Of a DNA stretch of 51,707 nt, positions 25,530 through 31,198 are shown one piece after another. Source of the stretch: Archangium sp. (GTDB lineage Bacteria > Myxococcota > Myxococcia > Myxococcales > Myxococcaceae); contig JAUYRZ010000019.1 in NCBI GenBank assembly GCA_030695565.1, forward strand, positions 1-51,707, given 5' to 3'. The translations under genes were made by a program, and so were the position numbers. The stretch's first letter is position 1. Every line of letters starts with the position of its first letter. The notes under the pieces are model-generated. The model ran no database searches and was not told the DNA's origin. It was given only the letters and a program-made list of their open reading frames with translations.

Positions 25530-26060
25530 ATGCGAACCGCAGCCCTGCTTCTGGCCCTGACCTCCACGTTTGCGCTGGCCGATGAATCGAACTGCTCGGT
25601 CATGCTTACGGACACTGGCGAGCAGAAGATCAACGTCATCAAGATCGTCCGCGAATACACGTCGTTGGGCCTCAAAGACGCGAAGGACCTGGTCGAGGCG
25701 CCCAAGCCGAAGCTCCTTCGTGAGGGGCTGAGCCGGGCCGATGCAGACGCGTTGGTGGCGGCCCTGGCCGCGAAGGGGGCGAGCGCCGAGGTGCGCTCGA
25801 AGGGCGAACATCCCGTGCCCCAGGCGCGCACGCCGAAGGCCGCCCGCTTCGACGTGAAGCTGGAGAGCTTCGGGCAGAGCAAGATCAGGGTGATCAAGAT
25901 CGTGCGCGACCGCACCGGCCTGGGGTTGGCGGACACCAAACGGCTGGTCGAGTCAGCCCCCGTGGTGGTGTCTTCAGGCCAGAGCAAGCCCCTCGCGGAG
26001 TCGATGCTCACCGACCTGCTCGCGGCCGGAGCGAAGGCCTCGATCATTCCGTCGCCCTGA
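25530..26060 (+). CDS. Secreted protein with two L7/L12 C-terminal-like domains
   Basis: 176 aa. A signal peptide (MRTAALLLALTSTFALA, cleavage before Asp-Glu) is followed by two copies of a fold resembling the C-terminal domain of ribosomal protein bL12: copy 1 (about 33-90, KINVIKIVREYTSLGLKDAK) and copy 2 (about 112-172, KIRVIKIVRDRTGLGLADTK). In bL12 this surface binds translation factors; a secreted tandem version cannot do that and must have another role. Ribosome site AAGAGG precedes the ATG. It is divergent from oleA. Function unknown; the fold assignment is from the conserved VIKxVR...GLGLxxAKxLVE pattern. Confidence 0.85.
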   Translation: MRTAALLLALTSTFALADESNCSVMLTDTGEQKINVIKIVREYTSLGLKDAKDLVEAPKPKLLREGLSRADADALVAALAAKGASAEVRSKGEHPVPQARTPKAARFDVKLESFGQSKIRVIKIVRDRTGLGLADTKRLVESAPVVVSSGQSKPLAESMLTDLLAAGAKASIIPSP

Positions 26061-26143: not shown

Positions 26144-29100
26144 GTGGTCCGGCGTTACGCTCAGGTCGTGGTCTCGCCGTCTTCGCGATTGTTCGTGTTG
26201 GTCCTGCTGGTCTCCAGCTGCGCGCCGTCTGAGCCGATTGGTCAGCGACACGACGAGCTGATCTCGTTGGGGCCGATGACCTCGCCTCGGTGGTGGCACG
26301 TCACCGCGCTGCTCGCCGATGGGCGCGTGCTGGCGGCCGGCGGGTACCCGACCATCGCGCAGAACGCGACCAACACCGCTGAGGTCCTCGATCCTCACAG
26401 CGGCGTGTGGACCGCGGTGCCCCCGCTCTCCGCCCTGCGCGCGCAGCCCACCGCGACGCTGCTGCGCAACGGCAAGGTGCTGGTGGTCGGTGGCTATCGC
26501 GGGAGCGGTAACAACTCGTTCGCATCCGCCGAGTTGTTCGATCCTTCGACGAACACGTGGGCCGCCACGCCGCCGCTTTCGAGTGGTCACGCGTATCACA
26601 CGGCCACGCAGCTCTCGGATGGCCGGGTGTTGATCTCCGGCGGGTGGGACTCGGGCAGCTCCATCGCGGTCGTCGAGGTGTACGACCCGGTCATCAACAA
26701 CTGGAGACCCGCTGCCAGTCTCGGTGTCGCGCGCAACACCCACGCGGCGGCGCGCTTGCGCAATGGCAGGGTGTTGGTCAGCGGCGGCCGTGATGCCACG
26801 GGCGCGTACGTCGCGAGCGCTGAGCTGTTCGACCCGGCCACCGGGCTGTGGACACCCACCAGCTCGATGGCGTTCGCGCGGCAACGGCACACGCTCACCG
26901 TGCTGCATGACGGCCGGGTGCTGGCGGTGGGCGGGCGTGACTCGGCCAGCAATGGCCTCGCTTCCGCGGAGCTCTACGATCCTGCGACCGGGCTGTGGAC
27001 TGCCACGGGGGCGATGAGCACACCGCGTGGTTTTCACAGCGCGACGCTGATGCCCGATGGAAGCGTGGTGGTCAGCGGCGGGTGGAACTCCACCGCGGGC
27101 GCTGACGTGGCGAGCGTGGAGCGCTACCTGCCGACGCTCGGCACCTGGGCCCTTCAGGCGCCGCTCTCGGCCGTGAAAGACTCGCACACCGCGACGATGA
27201 TGCCCGATGGGCGCGTGTTGATCAGTGGTGGTTCGAACACCATCGCGCTCGCCGATGCGGAGCTGCTCGAGCTCAATCAACCCACGGTGAGCTCCGCTGC
27301 TGCGCTGCAAGTGCCTCGCGTCAATCACACCGCCACGTCGTTGCCCGATGGCCAGGTGTTGATCGCGGGTGGCGAAGCGGGCGCCGTGGCCCTCGCGACC
27401 GCGGAGCGCTTCGATGAAGGGACCGGCAACTCGGTGCCCACCGGGCCCATGCAGGAGCCGCGTACGTTCGCTGCGGCGACGCTGTTGCTCAACGGCAAGG
27501 TGCTGGTGACGGGCGGCAGCAATGCGGGTGGTGAGCTCGCGACCGCCGAGTTGTTCGATCCGGCCACCGGGCGCTGGGTTCGCGCGGGCACCATGACGCT
27601 CGCGCGCAGCGGGCAGAGCTCGACGTTGTTGGCCGATGGCCGCGTGTTGATCGCGGGCGGCGGCTCGCTCGCGGATGCCCGCATCTACGATCCGGCCACC
27701 GGGCGCTGGACCATCACCGGCGCGATGACCACGGCACGCCGGTCGCACACCGCCACGTTGTTGTTCACCGGGAAGGTGTTGGTGACGGGTGGCGTCGGGC
27801 TCTCCAGCGCGGAGTTGTTCGACCCGCTCACCGGCACCTGGAGCCCGGCCGCTTCCATGGCGATCGCGCGCAGCCGGCACACCGCCACGCTGATGCCCGA
27901 TGGTCGAGTGCTCGTCACCGGGGGCGCGAGCGCTGAGCTGTACGAGTCCGCGGGGAATGCGTGGAGTCCCGCAGGGTCACTGCTCGCCGCTCGCGTGGGC
28001 CACACGGCGACGATGCTGCAGTGCGGGGATGTGTTGATCGCGGGAGGCGGGTCGCCGAGCACGGAGCTCTTTCGGCCCATGCGCGGTGCGTTCGCGGCCG
28101 GGCCTTCACTGGGCGCTGCACGCAGCGGACATGGCGCGACGTCGCTGCCTTCGGGGCGGGTGTTCTTCAGTGGTGCAGGTGCGAGTGAGCTGTTCGACGA
28201 GGGGCGCGGTGTGGCGGCCGCCGCGCAGCCCGCGATCAGTGGTGCGTTGGCGAATACCAACCCGGGCGCGTTGCTCATCGTCGACGGCACCTTGTTCACC
28301 GGTTGGAGTGAAGGTTCGGCGGGCAGTCACCAGTCGTCTCCCTCGGATCTTCCTGTCGTGCAGGTGCGCAGGTTCGAGAACGAGGCGGTGGTGCGCTCGA
28401 GCCTGCGGGACTTTACTGCCAACAGCGTGCGGGTGCAGTTGCCAGCGGTGACGCAGGCGGGGTGGTACCGCGTGAGCGTGACGGTCAATGGTGCTCCTAG
28501 TGTGGCTCGCTCGATGTTGGTGCCGGCCAGTGGGGCTTCTTCTTCTTTGGGGGCGAGCTGCACGATGCCGGGCGCTTGCGCGAGCGGGTTCTGCGTCAAT
28601 GCCGTCTGTTGTGATCAGGCCTGCACGGATGGTTGCTCGGTCTGTTCGGTTGCCTTGGGTTCGGGGTCGAACGGCGCTTGTGAGATTCCGCCGGCCTCTT
28701 CGTGCTCGGCGGATGGTGGTGCTGTTGATGGTGGCTTGTTCGATGGTGGCTCCTTCGATGGTGGCTTGTTCGATGGGGGCTCCTTCGATGGTGGCTCCTT
28801 CGATGGTGGCTCCTTCGATGGTGGCTCCTCCGATGGTGGCTCCTCCGATGGTGGCTCCTCCGATGGTGGCTCCTCCGATGGTGGCTCCTCCGATGGTGGC
28901 TCCTCCGATGGTGGCTCCTCCGATGGTGGCTCCTCCGATGCGGGATCCTTCGATGCGGGTTCCTCCGATGCGGGTGTTGTTGATGCGGGCTTTGTCGACT
29001 CGGGTCTTGTCGACGCTGGTGAAGCAGATGCGGGTCAGGCTGACGGTGGCGTTGTCGATGATGAGGTCGACGGTGGCGCCTCGCGGCGAAACTTGAGTGT

Positions 29101-29248
29101 CGGTTTTAGCTGCAGTGCCGCTGGTGGTCCCGCCTTGTGGCTGTTGCTTGCTTTGGCCTGGGTGGCTCGCGGCCCCTCACCCCGACCCTCTCCCCGCGTT
29201 CGCAGGGAGAGGGAGAGCGGATTTGATGAGGTCGCTTGCGACGAGTGA
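26144..29248 (+). CDS. Kelch-repeat lipoprotein with MYXO-CTERM-like anchor
   Basis: 1034 aa. The N-terminus has a signal peptide with lipobox LVSSC (Cys near residue 26). About a dozen kelch-like blades follow to about residue 690, each with a DGRVLxxGG and an AELFDPxTxxW signature, forming one or two beta-propellers. Then come a beta-sandwich-like domain, a Cys-rich segment (GASCTMPGACASGFC...), an Asp-Gly-Gly-Ser repeat tract, and a C-terminal CSAAGGPALWLLLALA membrane segment like MYXO-CTERM sorting signals. It is probably on the cell surface. The last part (GPSPRPSPRVRRERES) is encoded by a palindromic repeat, and the 3' end overlaps the convergent M48 gene by 72 bp. GTG at 26144 used; GTG at 26168 is an alternative. 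Confidence 0.85.
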   Translation: MVRRYAQVVVSPSSRLFVLVLLVSSCAPSEPIGQRHDELISLGPMTSPRWWHVTALLADGRVLAAGGYPTIAQNATNTAEVLDPHSGVWTAVPPLSALRAQPTATLLRNGKVLVVGGYRGSGNNSFASAELFDPSTNTWAATPPLSSGHAYHTATQLSDGRVLISGGWDSGSSIAVVEVYDPVINNWRPAASLGVARNTHAAARLRNGRVLVSGGRDATGAYVASAELFDPATGLWTPTSSMAFARQRHTLTVLHDGRVLAVGGRDSASNGLASAELYDPATGLWTATGAMSTPRGFHSATLMPDGSVVVSGGWNSTAGADVASVERYLPTLGTWALQAPLSAVKDSHTATMMPDGRVLISGGSNTIALADAELLELNQPTVSSAAALQVPRVNHTATSLPDGQVLIAGGEAGAVALATAERFDEGTGNSVPTGPMQEPRTFAAATLLLNGKVLVTGGSNAGGELATAELFDPATGRWVRAGTMTLARSGQSSTLLADGRVLIAGGGSLADARIYDPATGRWTITGAMTTARRSHTATLLFTGKVLVTGGVGLSSAELFDPLTGTWSPAASMAIARSRHTATLMPDGRVLVTGGASAELYESAGNAWSPAGSLLAARVGHTATMLQCGDVLIAGGGSPSTELFRPMRGAFAAGPSLGAARSGHGATSLPSGRVFFSGAGASELFDEGRGVAAAAQPAISGALANTNPGALLIVDGTLFTGWSEGSAGSHQSSPSDLPVVQVRRFENEAVVRSSLRDFTANSVRVQLPAVTQAGWYRVSVTVNGAPSVARSMLVPASGASSSLGASCTMPGACASGFCVNAVCCDQACTDGCSVCSVALGSGSNGACEIPPASSCSADGGAVDGGLFDGGSFDGGLFDGGSFDGGSFDGGSFDGGSSDGGSSDGGSSDGGSSDGGSSDGGSSDGGSSDGGSSDAGSFDAGSSDAGVVDAGFVDSGLVDAGEADAGQADGGVVDDEVDGGASRRNLSVGFSCSAAGGPALWLLLALAWVARGPSPRPSPRVRRERESGFDEVACDE
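28741..28935 (+). repeat. 15-bp tandem array (13 units) coding for (D-G-G-S-S/F)n
   Basis: Thirteen consecutive 15-bp units based on cgatggtggctcct(t/c), eight of them identical from 28816 on. The period is a multiple of three, so copy-number change by slippage keeps the reading frame and only alters the length of the spacer before the membrane anchor. Asp-Ala-Gly variants continue to about 28975. Confidence 0.95.
29171..29214 (-). repeat. Dispersed palindromic repeat, copy 11, shared by two convergent genes
   Basis: ggcccctcaccccgaccctctccccgcgttcgcagggagaggga. On the plus strand it encodes the Arg-rich tail of the kelch protein. On the minus strand it encodes LPLPANAGRGSG and supplies the TGA stop of the M48 protease from its GGGGTGAGGG tail. 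Confidence 0.85.
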
Positions 29249-30565
29249 CTCTTCTCCCTTCACCAACACCATGCCCACCCCAGGACTCCAGCGCGGCTCG
29301 TAACCTTGTCTCGCCAGGCGCACCGTCAGCCACTGTACCAACCACGACACGGCATCACGCCGCCTCGCCTCACGCGACATGAAGCGCATGCCAGTCGACA
29401 GCCGCTCCGACAGCGACTCTGCGTCGGCCAGGAGCTCCGGCAACGCCGCCACCTCGGTGTGCTTCGCGAGCACCGTGCCTTCCAGCGCCTGGTCGAACTC
29501 CTCGATCAATCGCGGACCGAGTTCGCTCCAGCTCAGCTCCTGCATTCCCTGCAGGTCTCCGGTGAAGGTCATCTCCATCACCATCGCCTCCATCGCGCGC
29601 TCGTCATCACCCAGAAGCTGCAGCGCAGGAGGGCTCGCCGACAGCCGGCCTTCACCTTGCGGCAACGCGGAGAGCCGCTGCTCCTGCGTGGGGTGCGTGT
29701 CCCACGGGCTGGGCTCCGAGTGCCGCAGGCTCTCGAGCACCTCGCGGAAAGCTTCGCGCAACGCTCTGGGCTCAGGCAACGCCCGGTACCCCGCCATCAC
29801 CGGCACCCGCAGTCCACGTTGCAGCAACGGCACCACGTCGAGCTGAAGATACGTCTGCCAGAGCGGGCCGTTCTCGTGCACCAGGCGCAGCGCATTGCGC
29901 GCGGCGGTCGCGCCGGCCACCTTCGCAGACAACGCGTCGGCCGAGAGCTCCTGCGCGCGCGAGACCGAAGCGGTCAGGCGCAGGTACGACTTTCCGTACG
30001 CGCGAAAGGGAACGTCGAGGAAGAACATCGAGTCGTCGAGCTGACCGATGGCCGCCGCCAGGGCGAGGCGCGTTCGGTACACCAGCGGACCCAACGTGAC
30101 GTCGTGCCCGACGTGGTGACCGAACTCGTGCGCGACCACCGCGGCCAGTTCGTCCTGCTTCATCCACATCAACAGCGGCAGCCCCAGCGTCATGGTGGGC
30201 ACGCGCTTGAAGAAGCCACGCCGCTCCAGGCCGGTGAAGGCGGTGGCTTCCATCGTGAGGCGCAGCTCGGCCGGCACGCGTGCTCCGGTGCGGCGCGCGA
30301 GGTCTTCCACGAACGCGAACAACGCCGGCGCTTTGCTGCGCTCGAGTGAACGAGTCGCCTCTTCTTTCGGAGCGAAGCGCGGCCGCAGCGCCCACGCGAC
30401 GGTGAGCCCCAGCACGCCGGAGATCACGCCCGCGGCGGTGACGTGCCGCGAGTAGGTGCCTTCAGCCCACGGCACCCAGAGCAGCGCACCCGTCAGCGCG
30501 AGCCCGAGCACGTAGAAGCCTGCCCACCAGGTCAACGCCAGCAACGCTCGCAGCCGCGCGCTCAT
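29177..30565 (-). CDS. M48-family membrane metalloprotease
   Basis: 462 aa. Two N-terminal hydrophobic segments (about 8-30 and 42-60) precede a peptidase domain with HEFGHH zinc-binding motif (about residues 145-150) and the downstream AQELSADA glutamate ligand. M48 enzymes (HtpX, BepA-like) clear damaged membrane or outer-membrane proteins. The final residues come from palindromic repeat copy 11, whose tail provides the stop codon. The next minus-strand gene upstream, the Hint lipoprotein, ends 3 bp before this start, so the two may be co-transcribed. Confidence 0.9.
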   Translation of the reverse strand: MSARLRALLALTWWAGFYVLGLALTGALLWVPWAEGTYSRHVTAAGVISGVLGLTVAWALRPRFAPKEEATRSLERSKAPALFAFVEDLARRTGARVPAELRLTMEATAFTGLERRGFFKRVPTMTLGLPLLMWMKQDELAAVVAHEFGHHVGHDVTLGPLVYRTRLALAAAIGQLDDSMFFLDVPFRAYGKSYLRLTASVSRAQELSADALSAKVAGATAARNALRLVHENGPLWQTYLQLDVVPLLQRGLRVPVMAGYRALPEPRALREAFREVLESLRHSEPSPWDTHPTQEQRLSALPQGEGRLSASPPALQLLGDDERAMEAMVMEMTFTGDLQGMQELSWSELGPRLIEEFDQALEGTVLAKHTEVAALPELLADAESLSERLSTGMRFMSREARRRDAVSWLVQWLTVRLARQGYEPRWSPGVGMVLVKGEESLVASDLIKSALPLPANAGRGSG

Positions 30566-30568
30566 CGG

Positions 30569-31198
30569 TCACTCGCAGGAGCACTCACCCACGGAGGTCG
30601 TGCCCGCGTCGTCATACTTCGTCATGCAGATCACGAAGCTCGTGCCCGCGTCGGCGCACGTGCACGTGTGGCCCTGGTAGACGTTCTCCTGATTGAACTC
30701 GCATTGGCGCGCGATGCTCTTGTTGTGCACCAACACTCCACTGGCCACGAAGTTGTGCAGCTCGTGCATCACGGTGAGATCGAACACCTCGGAGATGCCC
30801 GCGGAGACCTGCCGCGTGTGCACCTCGACGGCACGCGGCGCGGCGCCGTCTTCCGGAACGAGCAGCAAAGAAGTGCGCTGACCGAGCACCCAGTCACCCG
30901 CCGGCGCCCAGGTCTTCGAACGCGGATCGTAGAGCGGATGATCAGTCGTGCAGGTCAGTGAGAAGCCCTCTCCCTCGAGCTGCATCACCTCGCGCGTGGC
31001 GCGCGCGACGGCCGTGATGGGCGAGGCCACCTTCTCCCCGGTCGAAGGGTCGATGCACCACACCGTGTCTTGCTCGATCAGGTCTTCGATGGGCCGCTTG
31101 CCTCGAGGCGTCCACACCAACATGCCCCTCGCGATGCACGTCGAAACGCAGGAGGCCAACGACAACGAACCCAACAACGCCGCCAGAGGCTTGTTCAT
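30569..31198 (-). CDS. Lipoprotein consisting largely of a Hint (intein/hedgehog-like) domain
   Basis: 209 aa from MNKPLAALL; an in-frame upstream Met precedes no signal peptide. The lipobox LASC puts the lipid Cys at 17. Only four residues on, Cys21 starts a Hint domain: block A CIARGMLVWTPRGKRPIEDL, block B TTDHPLYD with KTWAPAGDW after it, and the C-terminal VFDLTVMHELHNFVASGV then VHN (His158-Asn159). The residue after Asn159 is Lys, not Cys/Ser/Thr, so true protein splicing is unlikely; N- or C-terminal self-cleavage of the bacterial intein-like type is more likely. The 50-residue tail is Cys-rich (seven Cys, including CTC and CSC). Lies 3 bp upstream of the M48 protease gene. Confidence 0.85.
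   Translation of the reverse strand: MNKPLAALLGSLSLASCVSTCIARGMLVWTPRGKRPIEDLIEQDTVWCIDPSTGEKVASPITAVARATREVMQLEGEGFSLTCTTDHPLYDPRSKTWAPAGDWVLGQRTSLLLVPEDGAAPRAVEVHTRQVSAGISEVFDLTVMHELHNFVASGVLVHNKSIARQCEFNQENVYQGHTCTCADAGTSFVICMTKYDDAGTTSVGECSCE

Follow-up and report, generated by a model that had tools for sequence, protein, structure and literature searches.

A BIL-like Hint domain between lipid anchor and small cargo in predicted lipoproteins of Archangium and its relatives

A BIL-like Hint fills most of a 209-residue predicted lipoprotein of Archangium sp., and the architecture is new: a lipid anchor, the Hint, a lysine and a small cargo follow one another. We favour, with modest confidence, the reading that this is an exported, lipid-anchored autoprocessing protein of BIL type (A-type-like) whose Hint cuts a secreted cargo loose from the lipid anchor. 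This reading combines a predicted fold with observed catalytic residues, lipobox, six-Cys tail and selection.

Results

Layout of the Hint lipoprotein

The window, the whole stretch of 51,707 nucleotides analysed here, contains on its minus strand an open reading frame at 30569–31198 (stop codon included) whose translation is a predicted lipoprotein of 209 aa; translation, homologues and purifying selection all speak for a gene. The features of this gene described below lie on the same strand. Residues 1–16, MNKPLAALLGSLSLAS, form a putative signal peptide (31151–31198) of a pattern kept in homologues and are followed by Cys17 in the lipobox LASC (LSLAS-C17), which was assigned by pattern only. 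The putatively lipidated Cys17 and the Val-Ser-Thr behind it (31139–31150) make up the entire N-terminal flank of the Hint domain, in the homologues' manner, and the domain itself runs from Cys21 to His158-Asn159 (residues 21–159; 30722–31138). Signal peptide and lipobox Cys, a combination that homologues share, suggest that the protein is exported and lipid-anchored, with the lipid presumably on Cys17. Within the Hint, block A reads C21-IARG, block B Thr84-Thr-Asp-His87 (30938–30949), block F D140-LTV...H148-NF and block G VLV-H158-N159. At the C-terminal junction, His158-Asn159/Lys160 (30719–30727), the conserved Lys at +1 opens a tail of 50 residues (160–209; 30572–30721) with exactly six Cys, which appears to be a beta-rich mini-module. 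A first-pass annotation had described a lipoprotein whose Hint begins four residues after the lipid Cys and whose mature part is mainly Hint with intact Cys21, TxxH and His158-Asn159 followed by Lys, and the order Cys17, VST, Cys21 and the motifs listed here confirm that description.

The Hint fold and its conservation

The assignment to the Hint superfamily goes beyond chance. TIGR01443 (intein_Cterm) matched at 2.2e-6, over its curated cut-off, while the matches to Pfam Intein_splicing (6.4e-7) and intein_Nterm (0.0016) stayed under the cut-offs of those profiles; inteins and BILs in the PDB matched the Hint sequence with values down to 3.5e-7. An AlphaFold2 model built from 27 homologues reached a mean pLDDT of 90.8 (~97 in the Hint), and the predicted Hint aligned with solved structures of mini-inteins, of BILs and of the Hedgehog Hint over ~135 residues at Z ~19–21 and rmsd ~2 Å; the top Foldseek match of the model was BIL2 of Tetrahymena (6y75/6tmm). 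The horseshoe beta fold of the superfamily is thus predicted with confidence (Z up to 20.9), and its N-terminal Cys/Ser and block-B TxxH are represented by invariant C21 and T84-D86-H87. As in A-type BILs, the domain ends in His-Asn and the +1 residue is not Cys, Ser or Thr, being Lys in every lipoprotein-type homologue.

Cys21, Thr84, Asp86, His87, Asp140, His148, His158, Asn159 and Lys160 are invariant among 11 homologues of 42–67% identity, and Cys21, His87, His158, Asn159 and Lys160 are also invariant in 27 more diverged Hints, some of which had been picked out by a scan for VHNK itself. Throughout the lipoprotein form, Cys1, the block-B His and HNK do not vary. Comparison with the paralogue of the same genome gave dN 0.14 and dS 0.81 for the Hint, comparison of the homologues L098 and L099 gave 0.05 and 0.28, and overall dN/dS was ~0.17. 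The gene is coding and its Hint is under purifying selection. In the tails, which are short and loosely aligned, dN was near dS or saturated in most pairs.

Distribution of the architecture

A first protein scan across genome contigs returned zero matches; a protein search identified a paralogue of 68% identity on another contig, and the architecture is present twice in this genome. Relatives carry more, and strong Hint-profile matches occurred in 12 of 96 genomes of the same bacterial family, up to several per genome. Relatives were found in Archangium and metagenome-assembled genomes of Myxococcaceae, in Nannocystis pusilla and in Polyangiaceae, and at greater distance in Planctomycetota, where some Hints stand directly behind a lipobox-like Cys (L075, L076). 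Most profile matches, with few exceptions, are predicted lipoproteins in which the Hint starts 0 to 6 residues after the lipid Cys, and in L003, L007 and L025 the lipid Cys and Hint Cys1 are adjacent. A signal peptide and lipobox were present in 17 of 17 lipoprotein-type homologues recovered without bias. The first-pass annotation had stated that bacterial Hints are mostly parts of toxins or large surface proteins, not short lipoproteins; the Hint lipoprotein is no isolated oddity, since it recurs in 12 of 96 family genomes, Nannocystis, Polyangia and Planctomycetota. Literature searches found no paper about Hint lipoproteins in myxobacteria, and the myxobacterial Hints treated by Burglin (2008) are a different, secreted group (PMC2362128).

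Several variants were seen along the way. L059 (1437–2453) is a single predicted lipoprotein with two tandem Hints, each ending in HNK (HNKS and HNKL), and in L066, L068, L069, L077 and L083 the Hint lies at the extreme C-terminus, with HNK[SQ] and no more than 4–27 residues behind it. Hint lipoprotein copies at L009:1501-1656 and L067/L096 are broken by an in-frame stop or frame change and represent pseudogenes or assembly errors. L197, L198, L200 and L213 are Cys-rich proteins of a Polyangia type whose Hint has no C-terminal HN. Two other Hints of the Archangium genome, at G000:C61:11624-12031 and G000:C18:9117-9338, belong to large proteins (open frames >2300 aa), the former with a PT-HINT match and Asn at +1.

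Lysine at +1, lost jointly with anchor and cargo

Protein and profile searches recovered, without bias, 17 lipoprotein Hints, and Lys follows Asn in all of them. These searches also yielded 36 other Hints ending in HN, none of which has Lys there; the position is taken by N, G, T, E, Y, C, Q, F, I, S or L (Fisher's test, p = 3e-14, for sequences that are related and hence non-independent). A second, profile-based scan used the pattern VHNK[SQ], and since this pattern itself selects VHNK, its matches do not count as evidence for Lys at +1 and were omitted from the 17. Distant secreted Hints fetched with the VHNK pattern also carry the residue, and Lys at +1 may therefore mark a wider class. On a tree of 76 Hints, the label required 7 changes.

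In this tree, the lipoprotein Hints of the present type cluster in a group of 26 (support 99/99). A signal peptide is missing from three members, placed in two separate positions (L028 with L095; L093); in these, GLLVGD or GVVMRN stands where VHNK would be and the Cys tail is absent, but Cys1 and TxxDH are retained. Anchor, Asn step and cargo were lost jointly, twice independently, which links the Asn-Lys junction to the form that is exported and bears cargo. Retention of Cys1 and TxxDH in the paralogues without a signal peptide suggests that the N-terminal chemistry may serve a purpose in itself. Loss of Cys21 or Asn159 in orthologues had been proposed beforehand as the finding that would speak against autocleavage; Cys21 was never lost, and Asn159 was lost only in the two paralogue lineages that are also without signal peptide and tail. 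L100 (G115:C12), L095 (G118:C256) and L093 (G116:C85), Hint paralogues with intact Cys1 and TxxDH and without signal peptide, HNK and tail, are putative cytosolic Hints.

The six-Cys tail and other cargo

All six Cys are invariant across 15 tail modules, and the remaining tail sequence diverges; the tails of L094 and L105 have 24 Cys each, equal to four modules. For the tail alone, AlphaFold2 predicts five beta strands (pLDDT 88.9). Foldseek with the tail alone gave no match at E <= 0.001, and the tail has no Pfam match. Its profile is weakly similar to fibronectin type I (E 0.0025), and the solved chains that reach Z >= 2 against the tail model, four in all, are FnI modules or NEL. FnI and VWC modules have in common with the tail a CxC...G.G...C core, whereas Z is only 2.0–3.1, the tail is short and it has a third disulfide pair. 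This weak likeness to fibronectin I and VWC is a lead, not demonstrated homology.

Behind HNK, the family carries as cargo one or four six-Cys modules, Ig-like repeats (L070) or an alpha/beta hydrolase, the latter as the C-terminal part of the Hint lipoprotein at L056:5938-7572 (Chlorophyllase / PAF-acetylhydrolase profile). Across 60 genomes, every six-Cys module that was found stood behind a Hint, and the idea that it is a separate lipoprotein module split by the Hint as by an intein was rejected accordingly. Two sets of candidate modules were also set aside, namely the weak matches L131–L135, with an unconvincing Cys pattern, and L123, which sits among sugar-nucleotide genes.

Gene neighbourhood

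An M48-family peptidase gene (29177–30565, minus strand; Pfam Peptidase_M48, 3.8e-13) starts at 30565, 3 nt past the stop of the Hint gene at 30569, and because of this short gap the two genes are probably co-transcribed here. The coupling to an M48 gene pointed out in the first-pass annotation is thus real as adjacency, but the linkage is unique to the window: no M48 gene was found near any other Hint locus, and M48 homologues in relatives sit away from Hint genes. The protease was therefore rejected as a functional partner and stands outside the conserved system. No neighbour gene common to Hint loci across genera was found; neighbours are conserved within one genus only (L098, L099, L093), and the paralogue lies between hisG and a thioredoxin gene. 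Elsewhere in the window, the plus strand encodes an exported-looking protein of 1034 aa (26144–29248) with nine kelch repeats (Pfam kelch), a stretch rich in Cys and a long repeat of DGGS, and a protein of 176 aa with a signal peptide (25530–26060), in which two apparent repeats similar to the ribosomal L7/L12 C-terminus (INVIKIVREYTSLGLKDAKDLVE) were judged by eye only.

Discussion

In Hint domains, thioester formation depends on Cys1 and the block-B His, and cleavage at the C-terminus on His-Asn. The 209-aa protein has every residue for this chemistry, and the tail is probably cut off by the protein itself or re-joined to the lipid, since the arrangement is kept in the whole gene family. In the scheme that we favour, the protein would be exported and lipidated at Cys17, after which the Hint would fold beside the membrane. 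The Thr20-Cys21 bond would be converted to a thioester via Cys21 with the assistance of His87, and Asn159, assisted by His158, would cyclise and break the Asn159-Lys160 bond, parting the cargo, a disulfide-rich and possibly fibronectin-I-like module of 50 residues, from the lipid-anchored Hint. Because the N-terminal side consists of a lipid stub only and all cargo lies on the C-terminal side, cyclisation of Asn159 would detach the cargo from the anchor. Most likely, a cargo beginning at Lys160 would be released, while the Hint would stay on its short lipid stub or be freed through hydrolysis of the thioester. The constant order of anchor, 0 to 6 residues, Hint, HNK and variable cargo suits a release device with interchangeable cargo. 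Both cleavages, release of the cargo and a role at the cell surface are presumed in this scheme, and the earlier suggestion that self-cleavage would free the Cys-rich tail gains support as a prediction from the full set of catalytic residues.

The strict Lys at +1, the retention of both reaction ends and the near-absent N-terminal flank fit ligation equally with release. Excision with ligation, the chief rival of release and a possible though doubtful outcome, would let the amine of Lys160 take the lipidated N-terminal peptide from the Cys21 thioester, either through its alpha-amine after Asn cyclisation, which gives a normal peptide bond, or through its epsilon-amine, which gives an isopeptide; the Hint would leave, and the six-Cys module would be lipidated. 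This would explain why Lys is fixed in the 17 unbiased lipoprotein Hints and in none of the 36 others, and why Cys1 and HN are both strictly retained. The nearest fold, BIL2, ligates its N-terminal partner onto a lysine of the C-terminal flank through an isopeptide to the epsilon-amine (PMC8616854), and splicing has been reported for A-type BILs without a +1 nucleophile (Dassa 2004; Aranko 2013, cited by PMC5874633, PMC7664689 and PMC4031507). The statement in the first-pass annotation that splicing is not expected was therefore too strong. On the other hand, these accounts conflict with a review according to which A-type BILs do not ligate (PMC7765530), and BILs without Cys, Ser or Thr at +1 yield mainly cleavage products (PMC7664689). 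Since a gene could encode such a lipidated product directly, the gain is moreover unclear, and a Hint-less lipoprotein bearing the six-Cys module was not found in 60 genomes. Slightly more doubtful still is the notion of a self-ligating lipoprotein maturase, in which the lipidated peptide passes from the Cys1 thioester to the conserved Lys at +1, forming a peptide or isopeptide bond, and the Hint removes itself.

It is improbable that the Hint is silent, a folded scaffold in an intact lipid-anchored six-Cys protein. Autoprocessing is a prediction and Lys160 is not a canonical +1 nucleophile, but Cys1, TxxDH and HN are invariant across strongly diverged sequences, and Asn was lost exactly where lipobox and cargo were lost. 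Least credible, in our judgement, is a small effector of polymorphic-toxin type whose toxin tail is freed by the Hint. A Hint upstream of a C-terminal toxin is a known release device (PMC3482391), and the tail is Cys-rich and fast-diverging; however, PF07591 (PT-HINT) is absent from the Pfam matches up to E 1, the sole PF07591 match of this genome belongs to the other gene on G000:C61, close relatives keep one six-Cys module and do not swap toxin domains, no common neighbour offers itself as an immunity gene, and Lys at +1 separates the lipoprotein Hints from toxin Hints. PT-HINT membership was rejected, the profile being unmatched and the tail being without toxin domain or shared immunity neighbour, and so was intein membership, with Lys160 instead of Cys, Ser or Thr at +1 and with no tail found apart from a Hint across 60 genomes.

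The release scheme that we favour can be set beside known Hint systems. A-type BILs (Amitai 2003; Dassa 2004; 2lwy of Clostridium thermocellum, Aranko 2013) have the same fold (Z 19.3, 2.0 Å, 133 aa), Cys1, TxxH, a C-terminal His-Asn and a non-nucleophilic +1 residue, and occur in fast-varying secreted proteins of bacteria, whereas the Hints described here stand directly behind a lipoprotein anchor (0–6 flanking residues) in small stand-alone proteins whose cargo is conserved and whose +1 residue is always Lys. BIL2 of Tetrahymena BUBL1 (6y75/6tmm), the best Foldseek match (Z 19.6; 19–20% identity), belongs to a eukaryotic polyubiquitin-like locus, its acceptor lysine lies within the ubiquitin-like domain rather than at a fixed +1, and it has no lipid anchor. 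Mini-inteins (Mtu RecA, Ssp DnaB, Npu DnaB) share fold and motifs (Z 20–21), but inteins reside in conserved host proteins with Cys, Ser or Thr at +1, whereas no Hint-less host protein was found here. The HINT of polymorphic toxins likewise sits just upstream of a variable C-terminal cargo that it is thought to free (PMC3482391), yet the lipoproteins have no RHS or filamentous stalk, and other Hints of the phylum have N, G, T, E and other residues at +1, never K. The Hog domain of Hedgehog has the same Hint fold and forms a thioester to an N-terminal signal peptide at the membrane (1at0, Z 19.3), but it has a sterol-recognition region and no C-terminal Asn step, whereas the N-terminal partner here is a lipid stub only.

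To our knowledge, little is understood of what intein-like domains do naturally in bacteria outside toxins, and the family provides compact (~200 aa) proteins that stand alone and bring anchor, Hint and cargo into direct contact. Owing to this contact, release and ligation are separable by one mass measurement, and the fixed Lys at +1, lost with lipobox and cargo in two lineages, makes a clear prediction for chemistry at the membrane. If the maturase notion were true, lipid would be attached to cargo without an enzyme and with Lys as dedicated acceptor, a bacterial counterpart to the lysine ligation by BIL2 of Tetrahymena. If ligation occurs, the family would offer an enzyme-free path to lipid-tagged proteins, possibly also as a tool.
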